42,936 nt of DNA from Clostridia bacterium. Lineage in GTDB: Bacteria > Bacillota > Clostridia > Oscillospirales > Butyricicoccaceae. The stretch lies in NCBI GenBank assembly GCA_017453985.1, contig JAFTDT010000018.1:1-42936 (forward strand), written 5' to 3'. The position numbers and the translations under genes were made by a program. Position 1 is the first letter of the stretch. Each line of letters opens with the position of its first letter. A model generated the notes under the pieces. The model saw only the letters and a list, made by a program, of their open reading frames with translations. It was not told the origin of the DNA and ran no database searches. Shown here in pieces: positions 3,028 to 42,855 of the stretch.

Positions 3028-4287
3028 CTATCTGCTCATTATTTCTTCTATCTCAGCGACGGTCATCAGGCGGTCGCCGGTCAGGTCCTCCGGCGCGCCC
3101 TCGGTCACAAGGATATCGTTTTCCAGCCGGATGCCGATGCCCTCCTCGGCAACGTACAGCCCCGGCTCGCAGGTTATCACCATGCCCGGCTCATACTCGG
3201 CGCGGTCGCAGGGGTCGTGAGTGTCCAGCCCCAGCGAATGCGAAACGCCATGATAGTAGTATTTGCTGACCTCGCTGTCGTCGCGTATCAGCTTTGCCGT
3301 CCGCAGCGCCTTTTTGTAAAAATCTATCACCGCCTGATTGGACTCGCGCACAGGCACGCCGGGACGCATCTTGTCACGCGCATGCGCCTGCGCCTCGCGC
3401 ACTATCTCAAACAGCTCCTTCTGCCTGTCGGTAAACTTTCCGCTCACCGGGAAGGTGCGGGACACGTCGGCGGAATAATACCCGCACTCCGCGCCGAGGT
3501 CAAAGAGGAACATGCCTCCCTCCTTGACCACGCAGTTGTTCTCATGATAATGCAGCATGACCGCATTTTCTCCCGACGCGGCGATGGTGGTAAAGCCATG
3601 ACGCATGCCCGCGCGCGCCACATAATGCTCATAATCTGCCGCCCACTGATATTCATACTCGCCGGGACGGGCGGTGCGGAGCATCTGCCGCAGCGCCTCG
3701 ATGGTCACGTCGCCGGCGCGGCGGATGCACTCCACCTCCTCCGGCGTCTTGATGGAGCGCAAAGAGGCGATATGCCGCGCGATATTCTTTATCTGCAAAT
3801 CGGGATACTTCTCCCGCAGGGTAAGCGCGTACTGCTCGGCGGGAGTCTGCGCCGCCTTCATCGAAAGGCGGTCGAGCGAGAAATACACGCCCACAGACTC
3901 TCCCATCGTGGGTCTGGCTCCGTTTATCTGCCCCGCCATATATCTGTCCATGTCCTGCATATAGCGTACGGCGCTCTCCGGCAGTCCGCTCTTTTGCGCA
4001 GCCTCCGCCGCCGTGAGCATCGGTCCGTTCCATTTGATCAGCATCTCGTCCGGCTGGTCGATAAACAGCGTCTCGCTGACGCCGGATGCGCGCTTACTCA
4101 AAATGAGCCAGACGTTCTGCGTGTCGATGCCCGTCAGATAGTAGAAATTGCGATTGACGGAAAACGGGTGCATGTCCTGATCGTGGCTCTTCACCGGCAC
4201 GAGTCCGGAATACAGGCAGACCACGCTGCCCTCGTCAAGCATATTAAGCAGCCTTTTGCGGTTGCCCGCGTAAAACTCAGCAGTCAT
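3028..4287 (-). CDS. Xaa-Pro aminopeptidase (M24B, PepP-like)
   Basis: Dinuclear-metal peptidase that cleaves N-terminal X-Pro bonds in cytoplasmic peptides; 419 residues, the usual length. The N-terminal half is the AMP_N/creatinase-like domain (RNFYYLTGID, residues about 1-130). The catalytic pita-bread half holds the five metal ligands: FDLGAECGYYSADVSRTF (two Asp), GVSHSLGLDTHDP (His), ITCEPGLY (Glu) and GIRLENDILVTEG (Glu). The ATG at 4287 follows GGAGG by 8 nt. A consensus promoter lies about 40 nt upstream at 4324-4352. First gene of a two-gene peptidase operon with the downstream M18 enzyme. Confidence 0.95.
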   Translation of the reverse strand: MTAEFYAGNRKRLLNMLDEGSVVCLYSGLVPVKSHDQDMHPFSVNRNFYYLTGIDTQNVWLILSKRASGVSETLFIDQPDEMLIKWNGPMLTAAEAAQKSGLPESAVRYMQDMDRYMAGQINGARPTMGESVGVYFSLDRLSMKAAQTPAEQYALTLREKYPDLQIKNIARHIASLRSIKTPEEVECIRRAGDVTIEALRQMLRTARPGEYEYQWAADYEHYVARAGMRHGFTTIAASGENAVMLHYHENNCVVKEGGMFLFDLGAECGYYSADVSRTFPVSGKFTDRQKELFEIVREAQAHARDKMRPGVPVRESNQAVIDFYKKALRTAKLIRDDSEVSKYYYHGVSHSLGLDTHDPCDRAEYEPGMVITCEPGLYVAEEGIGIRLENDILVTEGAPEDLTGDRLMTVAEIEEIMSR

Positions 4288-4323
4288 AAAACACCTCCGT
4301 AAGAAATTAAATCATGCTATAAG

Positions 4324-4352
4324 ATTATACCTTACTGAAAATTGGCATGCAA
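4324..4352 (-). promoter_or_regulatory. SigA-type promoter of the peptidase operon
   Basis: Minus strand: TTGCAT (4352-4347), 17-nt spacer, TATAAT (4329-4324), followed 36 nt later by the start codon of the Xaa-Pro aminopeptidase. Confidence 0.75.
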
Positions 4353-4458
4353 GAGTCTTTTGCGTTTTTTCTTTTTTACTTGTTTTTATATATTTCGGCA
4401 AGTCGCGGTCACATCGCGCCCAAAAAGCATATTTATTCATTTAAAATCCTGTTCGGGC

Positions 4459-4487
4459 TTGCTTTTTTTCGCATATTACGATAAAAT
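4459..4487 (+). promoter_or_regulatory. SigA-type promoter of the alpha-CTD-like gene
   Basis: TTGCTT (4459-4464), 17-nt spacer, TAAAAT (4482-4487), followed by a short leader and AAAGGAGG before the ATG at 4522. Confidence 0.6.
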
Positions 4488-4521
4488 TAATACAAACAAT
4501 TTAATAAAGGAGGCATTGTCC

Positions 4522-4761
4522 ATGCGTGGAAAGTACAAACGTAAGAGAGAACGGCGTCAAATGCTCGCCAATCTGCCGCTGTCCGAGCTTGCCCTCGGCA
4601 CAAAGATAGAGAACATTCTCTCAGGCGCCGGTATCGCAAGCGTGAGCGCGCTTGCCGCCAAATCTGGCGCGGAGCTGCTCGCCCTTCCCGGGCTGGGAGA
4701 AGCTTCGCTGAAAAGCATAGTCGAAAAGCTCAGCGCGCACGGACTTGCGCTGAAGCAATAG
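4522..4761 (+). CDS. Stand-alone RNA polymerase alpha-CTD-like protein
   Basis: A 79-residue protein made of a strongly basic N-terminal arm (MRGKYKRKRERRQ) and one domain resembling the C-terminal domain of RNA polymerase alpha (RpoA). The match is the helix-hairpin-helix pattern ILSGAGIASVSALAA followed by LLALPGLGEASLKSIVEKL, parallel to AGI-T-V-EL and the LGRKSL-E-KEKL of RpoA. There is no alpha N-terminal (assembly) domain, so it cannot be a core subunit. Start chosen because AAAGGAGG sits about 8 nt before the ATG and a promoter precedes it; the longer open frame upstream lacks both. Single-gene unit ending in a strong shared terminator. Function unknown; DNA binding or contact with polymerase or activators is inferred from the fold. 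Confidence 0.75.
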   Translation: MRGKYKRKRERRQMLANLPLSELALGTKIENILSGAGIASVSALAAKSGAELLALPGLGEASLKSIVEKLSAHGLALKQ

Positions 4762-4784: not shown

Positions 4785-4828
4785 AAAAAACAGGACGGGA
4801 AACTTGATTGTTTCCCGTCCTGTTTTTT
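4785..4828. terminator. Bidirectional Rho-independent terminator
   Basis: Perfect 19-bp arms (4785-4803 / 4810-4828), including A6 and T6 tails, around a 6-nt loop. It serves both the alpha-CTD-like gene and the convergent SLH protein gene. Confidence 0.95.
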
Positions 4829-4835
4829 TATGCTG

Positions 4836-7800
4836 TTATCTCTGGTAAGCCGTCCAGTCAGGTATCGAATTGATCTGCAGCCAGCGTTCATGACCGTTTG
4901 TCTTGTGCTCGTAGTCATGGCTGTTGGTGGCTTCCTGAACGTCGACATAATACCACTTGCTCTTGTCGGCGTTGTCATGCCAGGTGATCATGCCCTCCAG
5001 CAGATCCTCCTCACTCTCCGGGTCACGCTCCAGCACGCGGTTGATCAGCGCCATGGATTCCGCTCTGGTGATCTCCCGGTCAGGTCTGAAGGTGCCGTCA
5101 GGATATCCGTTGACCCAGCCGTTGCTCGCCGCCTTGCTGATCTCCATTGCCGCCCAATGACCGAGGATATCGCTGAAGTCCGCCATGACTCCCACTTCCT
5201 TCTCGTCAAAACGGGCCGCGATGGCGGCAAACTCCGCTCGGGTGATGTTGGCGTCGGGTCTGAAAGTACCGTCCGGATAGCCCTTGATTACGCCGATCCG
5301 CGACATCGTGGAGACTGCCACATTGTACCATGATCCCATGCTGACGTCGGGATAGTTATTATTGCTCGTCACGTTCGCCGCTCTCACATCGTCCCTCAGC
5401 AGCCTGAAGAATATCGTCGCAACCTCTGCGCGGGTGATATTCGCCTCCGGATAGACCATGCCGTTGGGGTAACCGATGATATAAGCAATATGATCCACCT
5501 TGTTGACCGCCGGAGTGCTGACTCTCTCCCAGCCGGCATAGACAGTCTTGCTGCCGTCCATCACGACATGGTCAATCATCTCCCGGAGCGCGGCATCCGC
5601 ATGCCAGCCGGTAAAGATATATCCCTCGCGCGTCGGCATCTTCGTCAACTCGACCTTCGTGTTCGCACTATACCGCTCATCCGCATATTCCGTGCCGCCG
5701 TTGGACTCATAATGCAGGATATAATATACGGTCTCGATCACTTCTGCCTTGGGTACGGCAGTCCAGCTTCCGCGGATCACCACATTATCCTCCGGCATCG
5801 TGAAGTCCGAATGGTCCCAACCGCTGAACTTATATCCGTTCAGCGTCGGAGCATCCGCGACCTTGACCTCCGCTCCCGGCGCGTATGTCTGCGCCGTCGG
5901 CGGTACAGGCGCGCCGACCGGTACGGTGCCGATGTATTCATAGCTTACCGTATATTTCTTCTCCTCTATGCGCAGCCACTGGGCAACATAGGTGATCGTC
6001 CTTGTAACGCTTTCGTCTATCTGCGGCTCCCAGCCCGCAAAGGTGTAGCCGGGGTTGTGCTCGGTATTGGGATCAGCCTTTACCACCGGCATCGGGTCGC
6101 CGTAGTGCAGTCCGCTCGTGGTTTCGTCCGCGGCGTTCCATGTGCCCTGTGTCCCCGGCGCATAGATGACCGTGTATTCGATCGCCTTCCACTGCGCCGT
6201 ATACGTCACGCTCTCCGTTACCTTGTCAGCGATAGCCTTGTCCCATCCGTCGAACTCGTACCCGGGCTTATGCGCCTCGTTCGGATTTATCTTCACCGCT
6301 GGCGTCGTGTCGCCGTAGTGCAGTCCGCTCGTGGTTTCGTCCGCGGCGTTCCATGTGCCCTGCGTCCCCGGCGCATAGATGACCGTGTATGTTTCCGGCT
6401 CGTCGTAGACCGTAAGCGTCGCCGTAGCTGCATCGTAATTAACCGTCGGCGATACCGTAATACTGCCGTCTGCGCTTACGTCAATAGTCCATGTTTCCGC
6501 AGAGAGCTTATATCCCCTCGGAGCCGTAGTCTCCGTCATGGTGTACGTACCCACCGGCAAATCTATGGAGCTTGTGCCGTACATATCCACTGACAGCGTA
6601 TATGTACTGCCTCCCTCATCGGTCAAGGTAAAGACCGCGGCATCCGAGCCGCTTCCCTCTCCGCCCTGCGGAGCGTCCGCCCCGCCAATGCTGCCGAGTC
6701 TGCTTATACCGGAGGGTGCAGAAAGCCTCATAGGCTCATCCGGAACAGGTCCTATACGCCACGGCTCATACTCCCTCACATATATATAGAATACATTCGA
6801 CTTTTCTGTATCTTCACAGAAATCGGTGACAATGAAATGACTATTATAATAACCCTCCAACCATGCATTGTCAATGCTATAATCTATCGGTTCTCCATCA
6901 GTATTGTTTTTCCGTGCCTTAATTATATAAATTTGTTCTCCATATTTTTCTGAATAGCCTGACGCCACGTCGCTATATCCGTATTTAATGATTCCCGTTC
7001 CGTCATTACCTGAAATATCGAAGTCTACCGAGCCCGACGGTATTCCACCACCGATGCCGATATCGGGCCAGGAAACAATTACAATAATATCAACGCTGTC
7101 ATCTGCAGGTCCCGGTCCCAACGCCGGCAGCTTCGCCACCGTGAAGCGTGCGGTAATATTCTCTTCCGGCTCGTCGTAGACCGTAAGCGTCGCCGTGGCT
7201 GCATCGTAATTAGCCGTCGGTGATACCGTGATGCTGCCGTCTGCATTTACGACAATAGTCCATGTTTCCGCAGAGAGTTTATATCCCCTCGGAGCCGTGG
7301 TTTCCTTCATGGTGTACGTGCCCACCGGCAAATCTATGGAGCTTGTGCCGCGCATATCCACCGACAGCGTATATGTACTGCCTCCCTCATCGGTAATGGT
7401 AAAGATCGCGGCATCCGAGCCGCTTCCCTCTCCGCTCTGCGGAGCGTTCATCCCGCCAATACTTCCGAGATTACTTATGCCGGAGGGTGCAGGAAGCCTC
7501 ATAGGCTCATCCAGAGAAATCGGCTCAATCATATTTACATCTATGTAGAATACATTCGGTTCGTTATTGTCTTCATAGAAATTGTTGACTCTGAAATGAC
7601 TATCTTCATAACCACCCGCAAGCCATGCATTGTCAATGCTATAATCTATCAGTTCTCCAGCAGTATTGTTTTTCCTTGCCTTAATTATATATTTTTGTTC
7701 CCCATACCCTGTCGAAACATCTGATGCCACGTCGCTATATCCGTAGCTAATGCTTCCTGTTCCGTCATCACCTGAAATAGTGAAGTCTACCGAGCCCGGC

Positions 7801-39835: not shown

Positions 39836-39873
39836 AGTTATCGGAACGATGCGTTCCGCAACAATCAGATATA

Positions 39874-39972
39874 AAAAACAGGGGTGCTGGAGCGATATCC
39901 GGCTGAGATATGGGCGATTTTGCCGCCCGTGACCCTTGAACCTGTTGGGTAATTCCATCGTAGGGAGTTTTT
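39874..39972 (+). ncRNA. TPP riboswitch (THI box)
   Basis: The conserved THI-box parts appear in order: GGGGTGC near 39881, GGCTGAGA near 39901, ACCCTTGAACCTG near 39932, GGGTAAT and CATCGTAGGGA at the 3' end. Closing P1 helix of A- and T-rich ends. It binds thiamin pyrophosphate and here precedes an intrinsic terminator, so TPP should stop transcription of the operon. Confidence 0.95.
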
Positions 39973-39990
39973 GCTTTGCCGCGCCTTAAA

Positions 39991-40054: not shown

Positions 40055-40354
40055 ATGAAAACCAGCATCGCCATTCAGGTGCTGCCGAACATGGGCAGCA
40101 CGGAGGAAACCGTCCGCGTGGTGGACGAGGTCATCGCCTACATCGCCTCAACGGGACTGAATTACTACGTCGGTCCCTTTGAAACTACCGTCGAGGGCGA
40201 GGACTTCGACCAACTCATGGAGGTCATCTCAAAGTGCGTCAAGACCGCCACGGAGGCAGGCTCCGAGAAGGTTTCCGCCTATGTCAAGATAAGCTATATG
40301 CCGCACGGCAAGATACTGACCATCGATGAAAAGGTCGCAAAGCATCACAAATAA
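40055..40354 (+). CDS. MTH1187/YkoF-type thiamin-binding protein
   Basis: A 99-residue cytoplasmic protein of the PF01910 (UPF0045/MTH1187) family with a ferredoxin-like fold. It begins SIAIQVLPNMGSTEETVRVV and has the family block YYVGPFETTVEGEDFDQLME and YVKISYMP. Members of this family next to thiamin genes bind thiamin or related pyrimidines. First gene after the TPP riboswitch, with AAGGAGG before the ATG. Its end overlaps the next gene by 29 nt. Confidence 0.9.
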   Translation: MKTSIAIQVLPNMGSTEETVRVVDEVIAYIASTGLNYYVGPFETTVEGEDFDQLMEVISKCVKTATEAGSEKVSAYVKISYMPHGKILTIDEKVAKHHK

Positions 40355-41105
40355 GCTGCCTGCCGTCTGCTCCGTCGCGCTGCTGCTGGCGCTGTGGCAT
40401 TTCGCATGCAGGCTGGAATGGGTGCCGGGCTTTATGCTGCCGTCGCCCGAAGCGGTGCTGCGCGCGCTCGTCGGGGACTTTCCCCTGCTGCTCAGCCATG
40501 CGCGGGTGACGCTGCTGGAGGCGGCTTACGGTCTGCTCTGCGGCATCACGGTGGCGTTTGTCGCCGCGACGCTGATGGACCGCTTTCCGGTGCTGTATCG
40601 GGCGCTGTACCCCATCATCATCGTCACGCAGACCATACCCACCATCGCCATCGCGCCGCTGCTGGTGCTGTGGATGGGCTTTGAAACAGCGCCCAAGGTC
40701 ACGCTGGTGGCATTGACGACCTTCTTCCCCATCACCATCGGATTGCTCGACGGCTACGGCTCCGCCAGCCGCGAGGCGGCTGATCTGCTGCGCTGCATGG
40801 GCGCGAGCCGCGTGCAGATATTCCGGCATCTCAAGCTTCCCGCCGCTCTCAGTCACTTTTTCTCCGGACTGCGCGTCAGCGCGTCCTACGCCGTGGTCGG
40901 CGCGGTCGTCAGCGAATGGCTCGGCGGCTTTGAGGGGCTGGGAGTGTACATGACGCGCGTGCGCAAGGCATACGCCTTTGACAAGATGTTCGCCGTCATA
41001 GTGTTCATCACGGCGGTCAGCCTGCTGCTGATGGCGGCGGTCGCGCTGCTGCGGCGGCTCGCAATGCCGTGGGAGGCTTACGAGAAAGTTGAAAGAAAGG
41101 ACTGA
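40326..41105 (+). CDS. thiX: ABC transporter permease for thiamin precursor (ThiX-like)
   Basis: A 259-residue inner-membrane permease of the SsuC/ThiX type, about six TM segments. The EAA loop is seen as EAADLLRCMGASRVQIFRHLKLPAALSH split over residues about 150-178. Other marks: LPSPEAVLRAL and PTIAIAPLLVLWMGFETAPK. The open frame begins at 40326 inside the previous gene; no better start precedes TM1, so a 29-nt overlap with translational coupling is likely. Works with the ThiY and ThiZ proteins encoded downstream to import a pyrimidine precursor of thiamin. Confidence 0.9.
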   Translation: MKRSQSITNKLPAVCSVALLLALWHFACRLEWVPGFMLPSPEAVLRALVGDFPLLLSHARVTLLEAAYGLLCGITVAFVAATLMDRFPVLYRALYPIIIVTQTIPTIAIAPLLVLWMGFETAPKVTLVALTTFFPITIGLLDGYGSASREAADLLRCMGASRVQIFRHLKLPAALSHFFSGLRVSASYAVVGAVVSEWLGGFEGLGVYMTRVRKAYAFDKMFAVIVFITAVSLLLMAAVALLRRLAMPWEAYEKVERKD

Positions 41106-41110
41106 TACCC

Positions 41111-42112
41111 ATGAAGAAATTGATTGCGATCACGCTGGCACTGCTGACCATGGCGGCGCTGCTCGCCGGCTGCGCGGACAAGGAGAGCGGCAAGGAGCTG
41201 AAGAAGATAACCTTCTGCCTCGACTGGACGCCCAACACCAATCACACCGGACTTTACGTCGCGCAGGCGAAGGGATATTATAAGGACGCCGGTCTGGACG
41301 TGACCATCGTGCAGCCGCCCGAAGATGGCGCTACCGCGCTGGTCGCCGCGGGACAGGCGCAATTCGGCGTGACCGGACAGGACACGCTCGCCGGCGCGCT
41401 GGCGCTCGACGAGCCGCTGCCCGTGACCGCCGTGGCTGCGCTGCTGCAGCACAATTCCTCCGGACTTATCGCCCGCGCGGGCGAGGGCATGGACCGCCCC
41501 GCCGGCATGGAGGGCAAGGTCTACGCCACCTGGAACAGCCCCATCGAGCTTGCCATGATAAAGTATCTGATGGAGGCGGACGGCGCAGACTTTGACACGC
41601 TGACGCTGATACCCAACAACATCACCGACGAGCCGGGCGCGCTGGCGGCGCATCAGGCGGACTCCATCTGGGTATTCTACGGCTGGGGCGCCATCACCGC
41701 CGAGCTGCGCGACTTTGACTACGACTTCACCTTCTTCAAGGATTACGGCGAGGTCATGGATTACTACACTCCCATCATGACGGCGAACAACGATTTTCTG
41801 AAAAACGACCCCGAAGCGGCAAAGGCGTTCCTCGCCGCCACGGCAAAGGGTTATGAATACGCCATCGAAAACCCCGAGGAGGCGGCGAAGATACTTATCG
41901 AGGGCGATACCACCGGTTCGCTGAAGGACTCCGAAGAGCTGGTCGTCGCCAGTCAGAAGTGGATGTGCGACCAGTATAAGGCGGAGGTCAGCCGCTGGGG
42001 CTATATCGACCCCGTCCGCTGGGACGGCTTTTACGCCTGGCTGACGGACAACGGTCTCTGCGCCAAGCCGCTCGGCGCCGGTACCGGCTTCACCAACGAT
42101 TTTCTCCCATGA
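41111..42112 (+). CDS. thiY: Thiamin-precursor-binding lipoprotein (ThiY, NMT1/THI5-like)
   Basis: A 333-residue extracellular substrate-binding lipoprotein. Signal MKKLIAITLALLTMAALLAGC with lipobox LAGC (Cys 21). The mature part starts with the NMT1/THI5 marks FCLDWTPNTNHTGLYVAQAK and GYYKDAGLDVTIV, then PPEDGATALVAAGQAQFGVT, and later QADSIWVFYGWGAI and YYTPIMTANNDFL. This is the ThiY pattern for N-formyl-4-amino-5-aminomethyl-2-methylpyrimidine, a salvageable thiamin breakdown product. It starts 5 nt after thiX and overlaps thiZ by 4 nt (ATGA). Under TPP riboswitch control. Confidence 0.93.
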   Translation: MKKLIAITLALLTMAALLAGCADKESGKELKKITFCLDWTPNTNHTGLYVAQAKGYYKDAGLDVTIVQPPEDGATALVAAGQAQFGVTGQDTLAGALALDEPLPVTAVAALLQHNSSGLIARAGEGMDRPAGMEGKVYATWNSPIELAMIKYLMEADGADFDTLTLIPNNITDEPGALAAHQADSIWVFYGWGAITAELRDFDYDFTFFKDYGEVMDYYTPIMTANNDFLKNDPEAAKAFLAATAKGYEYAIENPEEAAKILIEGDTTGSLKDSEELVVASQKWMCDQYKAEVSRWGYIDPVRWDGFYAWLTDNGLCAKPLGAGTGFTNDFLP

Positions 42113-42855
42113 CGGACTCTATACTGCGCGCAGAGCATATCTGCAAGAGCTATGACGGCGTGCCCATCGTGGAGGATATTTCCGTCCGCCTTGACTCGCG
42201 TGAGCTGGTCTGTCTTTTGGGCGTGTCCGGCTCCGGCAAGACCACGCTGTTCCACGTGCTGTCCGGGCTGAACCAGCCGGACAGCGGCAGGGTGTGGCTG
42301 CGCGACGAGGACATAACCGGCAAACCCGGCGCCGTCAGCTACATGCTGCAGAAGGATCTGCTGCTGCCGCACAAGAAGATAGTGGACAACGTCGCGCTGC
42401 CGCTGCTGCTTCAGGGCATGAGCAAAAAAAGCGCCCGCGACAAGGCGAGCGCGTACTTTGAGCAGTTCGGGCTGGCGGGCACGGAGCTGCGCTATCCCGC
42501 GCAGCTCTCCGGCGGCATGCGTCAGCGCGCGGCGCTGCTGCGCACCTACCTCGGCTCGCAGGGGGTGGCGCTGCTGGACGAGCCGTTCTCGGCGCTGGAC
42601 GCGCTGACCAAGGGCGAGATACACGCATGGTATCTCGACGTGATGGAGCAGATAGAGCTGAGTACGCTGTTCATCACCCACGATATCGACGAGGCGGTGC
42701 TGCTGAGCGACCGCATTTACATTCGCGGCGGCACGCCGGGGCTTATACCCTCCGAGCTTGTTATAGAGCCACCGCGTCCGCGCGGACGCGACTTCGCGCT
42801 GACGCCGCAGTTTTCGGACTACAAGCGGGAGATACTGAGGCTCTTGGATATGTGA
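42109..42855 (+). CDS. thiZ: ABC transporter ATP-binding protein for thiamin precursor (ThiZ-like)
   Basis: A 248-residue ATPase. Walker A GVSGSGKTT, Q-loop MLQKDLLLPHKKIVDNVALP, signature LSGGMRQRAALLRTYL, Walker B VALLDEPFSALD, switch His in LFITHDIDEAVLLSD; the SsuB/TauB/ThiZ pattern. Translationally coupled to thiY by ATGA. Last gene of the riboswitch operon before a strong terminator. Confidence 0.93.
   Translation: MTDSILRAEHICKSYDGVPIVEDISVRLDSRELVCLLGVSGSGKTTLFHVLSGLNQPDSGRVWLRDEDITGKPGAVSYMLQKDLLLPHKKIVDNVALPLLLQGMSKKSARDKASAYFEQFGLAGTELRYPAQLSGGMRQRAALLRTYLGSQGVALLDEPFSALDALTKGEIHAWYLDVMEQIELSTLFITHDIDEAVLLSDRIYIRGGTPGLIPSELVIEPPRPRGRDFALTPQFSDYKREILRLLDM

Follow-up and report, generated by a model that had tools for sequence, protein, structure and literature searches.

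The C-terminal domain of the RNA polymerase α subunit (α-CTD) is known as a tethered module of the polymerase. A short gene in a Clostridia genome encodes such a domain free of the rest of the subunit and raises the question of what an α-CTD does when it is released. The window (the whole stretch of DNA analyzed, 42,936 nucleotides) is an entire contig (C101) of a 2.06-Mb, 121-contig assembly that is 97.7% complete. An initial annotation had proposed a stand-alone α-CTD with a basic arm, its own promoter and its own terminator that could compete with or mimic RpoA at UP elements and activators. The features of the locus are as follows.

4300–4521, unstranded: AT-rich divergent intergenic region (31.5% G+C versus 56.3% for the window)
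4459–4487, + strand: weak promoter-like site TTGCTT-17-TAAAAT (8 of 12 consensus positions; under the scan threshold)
4506–4514, + strand: ribosome-binding site aaaggaggc, read from the sequence
4522–4761, + strand: coding sequence of the 79-residue stand-alone α-CTD protein (ATG start, TAG stop; 79 codons)
4525–4554, + strand: arm RGKYKRKRER, residues 2–11, identical in three distinct loci
4549–4734, + strand: α-CTD/helix-hairpin-helix (HhH) domain (PF03118 match; pLDDT ~90 in residues 21–70)
~4785–4829, unstranded: terminator hairpin of 19 pairs flanked by an A-run and a T-run, located between the two convergent genes

The frame, its codon count and the arm were all borne out, and the product consists of the arm MRGKYKRKRERR followed by a single α-CTD domain (PF03118). 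A longer frame is available from TTG 4342; ATG 4522 is the likely start, as AAAGGAGG lies just upstream and the extension carries no domain of its own. The context from ribosome-binding site to start, aaaggaggcattgtcc-ATG, was judged good. This site argues that the frame is a gene and not a chance opening, and so do the relatives, in which the amino acids are retained despite synonymous codon differences. The hairpin at 4785–4829 scored a z of −7.66, and none of 200 shuffles was equally good; it is absent from a consensus terminator scan of the window, which found none. Since it separates the α-CTD gene from the convergent S-layer gene, whose end is at 4836, it is probably shared, so the terminator itself stands while its exclusive assignment to the α-CTD gene does not. 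The promoter fared worse: a consensus scan listed no + strand site in 4287–4521, where the best promoter-like sites reach 8 of 12 consensus positions. The AT-rich region upstream of the gene is a possible autoregulatory target.

The identity of the domain was confirmed at the levels of family and fold. Pfam placed PF03118 over residues 10–71 (E = 8.2e-10; 38.7 bits versus a cut-off of 23.8), and this was the best family, above its cut-off, for the window protein and for all three relatives described below. HHH_5 (PF14520) came second for the window protein (E = 1.7e-6; 28.9 bits versus a cut-off of 27), and its scores across the members, 24.7–32.2 bits, were lower than those of PF03118 in every case. 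The NCBIfam matches were headed by RpoA models, aligned only over their last ~70 positions, and the top PDB sequence match was the Thermus α-CTD 1doq (E = 8.7e-9). A single-sequence AlphaFold2 model had a pLDDT of 85.4, with 65–76 across the first 20 residues, which leaves the arm less certain. Foldseek listed 50 PDB entries, of which 49 were RNA polymerase complexes or α-CTD structures, the lone exception being a RAD51-paralogue complex at rank 49. Query-normalized TM scores were 0.76–0.84 against α-CTD structures including 1lb2, 1z3e and 8hvr, and 0.77–0.78 against the 1lb2 chains. The N-terminal domain (α-NTD) is absent: even when read from 4342, its farthest possible opening, the frame encodes no NTD. 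A RuvA- or ComEA-like fragment was rejected on the Pfam ranking in all four proteins and the RpoA-led NCBIfam matches. The window protein is a PF03118 domain protein, neither RpoA nor PRK07758.

Apart from the α-CTD gene, the only PF03118 match in the genome is a normal rpoA frame on contig C42, and a complete rpoA is also present in all five carrier genomes (the hosts of L116 and L118 counted apart). Four distinct loci encode the armed protein in all: the window and three further ones in other Clostridia-type genomes, referred to here as G395, G730 and L116/L118. L116 and L118 were counted as one element because their sequences are 100% identical over 3388 bp, as far as the L118 contig extends. 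Identity is at most 35% between the window protein and its best-matching RpoAs; it is 27% to the RpoA domain of its own genome versus 45–53% to the other stand-alone members. The low identity to RpoA and the coverage of just a linker plus CTD would suit a decaying, functionless rpoA fragment, which we consider highly improbable given the closer resemblance to the other members, the gene's own start, ribosome-binding site and (probably shared) terminator, and an arm preserved through codon change. In a quick tree, too, the armed members formed a branch separate from 104 RpoA tails (SH-aLRT 92); a single origin is compatible with, rather than shown by, four long branches obtained by this method.

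Members are rare and patchily distributed, the pattern seen in genes that move horizontally. Within the taxonomic family of the window genome, a stand-alone arm-bearing copy was found in that genome only (1 of 87; E ≤ 1e-5). At the order level, armed copies occur in the window genome and G395 among the 31 of 394 genomes that matched at E ≤ 1e-6; the other matches are rpoA-sized, save one 70-residue frame at a contig start (G306) that aligns to residues 17–77. Among the matches listed for the class (391 genomes; down to ~1.4e-9), armed copies were those of the window genome and G730, and in the phylum the window genome was the sole armed carrier among 34 of 398 genomes matching at E ≤ 1e-11. 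The families of G395 (150 genomes) and G730 (21 genomes) each held that one armed copy alone. An arm-pattern search of genome_contigs returned 18 stretches, two of which (L116 and L118) encode the family and 16 do not; these counts are lower bounds, as the pattern required RGKYKRKRxR and variants like that of G730 escape it. An earlier scan of genome_contigs from a single protein gave 454 stretches and no relative. With the window protein as the tblastn query, neither plasmids nor phages gave a match at E up to 1. Scans of viral contigs yielded 39 pattern stretches with no relatives and 35 likewise with none, and a viral arm-pattern scan gave one stretch, out of frame with any α-CTD. The G395 protein matched 24 plasmid and 10 phage records; the six of these 34 that were examined comprised three full rpoA genes (L126, L127 and L128) and three other α-CTD proteins that lack the arm. 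The L116 protein matched eight plasmid records and one phage record. Two small frames, L072 (144 residues) and L170 (216 residues), were set aside as rpoA truncated by the contig end. As for the small annotated relatives in Firmicutes mentioned in the initial annotation, the only named small family that scored was PRK07758/NF005841, of which the window protein is no member. No published account of a stand-alone α-CTD in Clostridia or in mobile elements was found among the titles and abstracts listed by literature searches.

The basic arm was confirmed, and no part of the protein is more highly conserved. All ten residues of RGKYKRKRER are identical in the window, G395 and L116, though 6–7 of the ten codons differ (3–4 are the same), while identity across the domain among these three is 25/62, 30/61 and 22/61 (36–49%); the arm is therefore under stronger constraint than the domain. 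G730 carries the variant KGKYAKKRLR, with 6 of 10 residues in common with RGKYKRKRER. In all four members the first 16 residues bear a charge of +7 to +8 (+7 in the window protein) and the remainder is near neutral, giving the members a pI of 9.5–10.3 versus 4.97 for the RpoA tail of the window genome. That lysine and arginine are never exchanged within the arm at three loci is a hint of a specific partner; the ligand of the arm need not be a nucleic acid.

The residues through which RpoA contacts DNA were compared in E. coli numbering. In the rrnB P1 complex, R265 and N294 are described as entering the minor groove, and K291 and K298 as bridging phosphates (PMC7822876, PMC5101437). In the four members the R265 position is K, R, R and R, basic throughout, and N268 and G296 are kept in all. 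The lysines are lost in every member, K291 being replaced by A, T, A and A and K298 by A, V, A and S; N294 is glycine in all four, and the hairpin reads PGxG. The 104 RpoA tails keep R265 in 102 cases and K298 in 101. Thermus RpoA, a functional α-CTD, has PGIG at the same hairpin and retains a basic residue at 298; with PG thus also found at positions 293–294 of an RpoA, loss of N294 alone is not decisive, and PGxG does not by itself separate an α-CTD from other HhH proteins. Judged by these residues, some DNA binding is plausible because R265-type basicity, N268 and G296 are kept, and its affinity could be low because both lysines are lost and the hairpin is PGxG. The acidic residue of E261, which we take to be the sigma-contact position, is absent from all four members. 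At Y263, described as the Spx-contact aromatic of Bacillus subtilis (PMC2801614), the RpoA of the window genome has F and the four members have E, V, T and A, which makes a decoy for an Spx-like factor unlikely.

These residues bear directly on the proposal that the free domain competes with or mimics RpoA in trans, occupying UP elements or activator surfaces and so lowering or redirecting polymerase. The true α-CTD fold and family, together with the conserved R265-type residue, N268 and G296, favor it, and free Bacillus α-CTD is reported to bind promoters in vitro (PMC2801614, PMC9655642). The residue check nevertheless went against mimicry: K291, K298 and N294 are gone from every member, whereas RpoA almost always keeps K298 and R265, and the E261 acid and the Spx-contact aromatic are missing too. 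We regard UP-element competition or mimicry as quite unlikely.

The genomic settings of the four loci differ. The window gene is a single gene between an M24 peptidase gene, from which it diverges, and a gene for an SLH/SpaA surface protein, with which it converges. No mobile gene was present among the six flanking genes scanned, which encode a PAS/HTH regulator, M18 and M24 peptidases, the SLH surface protein, a GH3 protein and a MatC/CitMHS transporter. A search for the upstream peptidase gene in 20 other genomes of the taxonomic family gave nothing at E ≤ 1e-60, a threshold too strict to speak to conservation of the locus. Farther along the window, a TPP riboswitch at 39870–39983 (+ strand; 55.6 bits, just above the gathering score of 54.3) precedes an operon at 40055–42855, presumably for thiamine-type transport from the look of its proteins. 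The G395 copy lies in an ICE-like element, ~7 kb from a boundary formed by a tRNA gene and an integrase gene, in a stretch that encodes PemK, a sigma-region-4 protein, an FctA-type surface protein, HU, a second integrase and a TraG/VirB4-like ATPase. The L116/L118 copy lies in a mobilizable element, surrounded by genes for MobC/NikA, TnpV, a serine recombinase and an actin-like protein. At L116:3738-5043 (− strand), a gene for ToxN (type III toxin–antitoxin) lies directly downstream of the α-CTD gene, and the 38-base tandem repeat of 2.4 copies that separates the two matches the expectation for a ToxI antitoxin RNA. In G730, the gene comes after one for flavodoxin on a contig of 4.2 kb, with a gap of ~12 bases from start to stop. 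A role in mobile elements is thus not general, as the window copy has no mobile neighbors and the G730 copy sits behind the flavodoxin gene.

Two further explanations were weighed. In the first, an arm docked on RNA polymerase, on sigma or on a nucleoprotein would bring an extra α-CTD-like module to selected promoters, such as those of a mobile element. The exact arm exceeds what generic charge would need, and the G395 gene shares its element with the sigma-region-4 and HU genes; no sigma gene, however, was among the genes scanned at the window, L116/L118 or G730, and we hold this polymerase-bound factor to be unlikely. Alternatively, the protein might be a non-specific HhH binder of DNA or RNA that serves element transfer, excision or DNA packaging in an HU-like manner, with no role in transcription. 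PGxG is the usual HhH hairpin form and occurs in all four members, their HHH_5 scores straddle the cut-off and two relatives sit in transfer elements. Yet PF03118 outscores HHH_5 in every member, Thermus RpoA shares PGIG and the window and G730 copies lie outside recognizable elements; a non-specific binder is somewhat unlikely. The preferred reading and these alternatives overlap.

The reading we prefer, with about even confidence, is that the α-CTD module has become a DNA-binding protein with an accessory or regulatory role, its arm standing in for the lost contacts and probably also docking on a particular partner. In its favor, besides family, fold and arm conservation, each carrier genome has a complete rpoA as well, and isolated α-CTD is reported to bind AT-rich promoter DNA in vitro (PMC2801614, PMC9655642). 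The HhH domain would contact DNA with the R265-type residue that it has kept and with the backbone of its hairpin, and the arm would supply the charge lost with K291 and K298 and probably add a specific contact to DNA, RNA or protein. With no α-NTD to tie it to polymerase, the protein would act in trans as an accessory or regulatory factor. As relatives are carried by ICE/IME-type elements, we infer that its first home was probably mobile DNA, and the window copy is a stand-alone chromosomal gene. A more specific version, in which the arm of a mobile α-CTD docks on conserved transcription or conjugation machinery of Clostridia and an element thereby draws host polymerase or nucleoprotein to the element's own promoters or origin of transfer, seems quite improbable.

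What is new here is a small, patchy family of free α-CTDs with a conserved basic arm. A free α-CTD kept by selection, with an arm more conserved than its domain, points to a module usable in trans, and offers a very small, easily purified test case for α-CTD action without polymerase. It may also represent a new route for mobile elements to influence transcription in the host or to act on their own DNA.

Among known systems, NF005841/PRK07758 (hypothetical, 95 residues) is likewise a small protein with an α-CTD-like HhH domain. The match is weak, at 18.8 bits for the window protein and 22.6 for G395 versus a cut-off of 115, and it begins past the arm. HHH_5 shares the PGxG hairpin and scores just over its cut-off, but PF03118 scores higher and spans more of the domain. 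The α-CTD modules found outside RpoA take several forms on plasmids. Three plasmid loci (L129:2344-3228, L131:1338-2279 and L130:2938-3363) are annotated as 'RNA polymerase subunit alpha C-terminal domain-containing' and differ in architecture. Plasmid fusions (for example, WP_124785686.1, WP_173050282.1 and WP_301908318.1) resemble the window protein in a PF03118-like domain, whereas they are 142–313 residues long with other domains or extensions, and none has the arm. The proteins of relatives (L034 and L049) gave weak BREX PglW matches (5.2e-5 and 1.2e-5, far below the cut-off), which suggests an α-CTD-like HhH stretch inside PglW. Francisella is described as having an additional α-derived gene, its two full-length subunits forming a heterodimer (PMC3294249), whereas the window protein is a CTD only. 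RpoA itself remains the nearest comparison: the window protein matches its α-CTD in family, fold, R265-type basic residue, N268 and G296, and differs from it in lacking an α-NTD, in a basic arm that takes the place of the linker and, like all four members, in the replacement of K291, K298 and N294.
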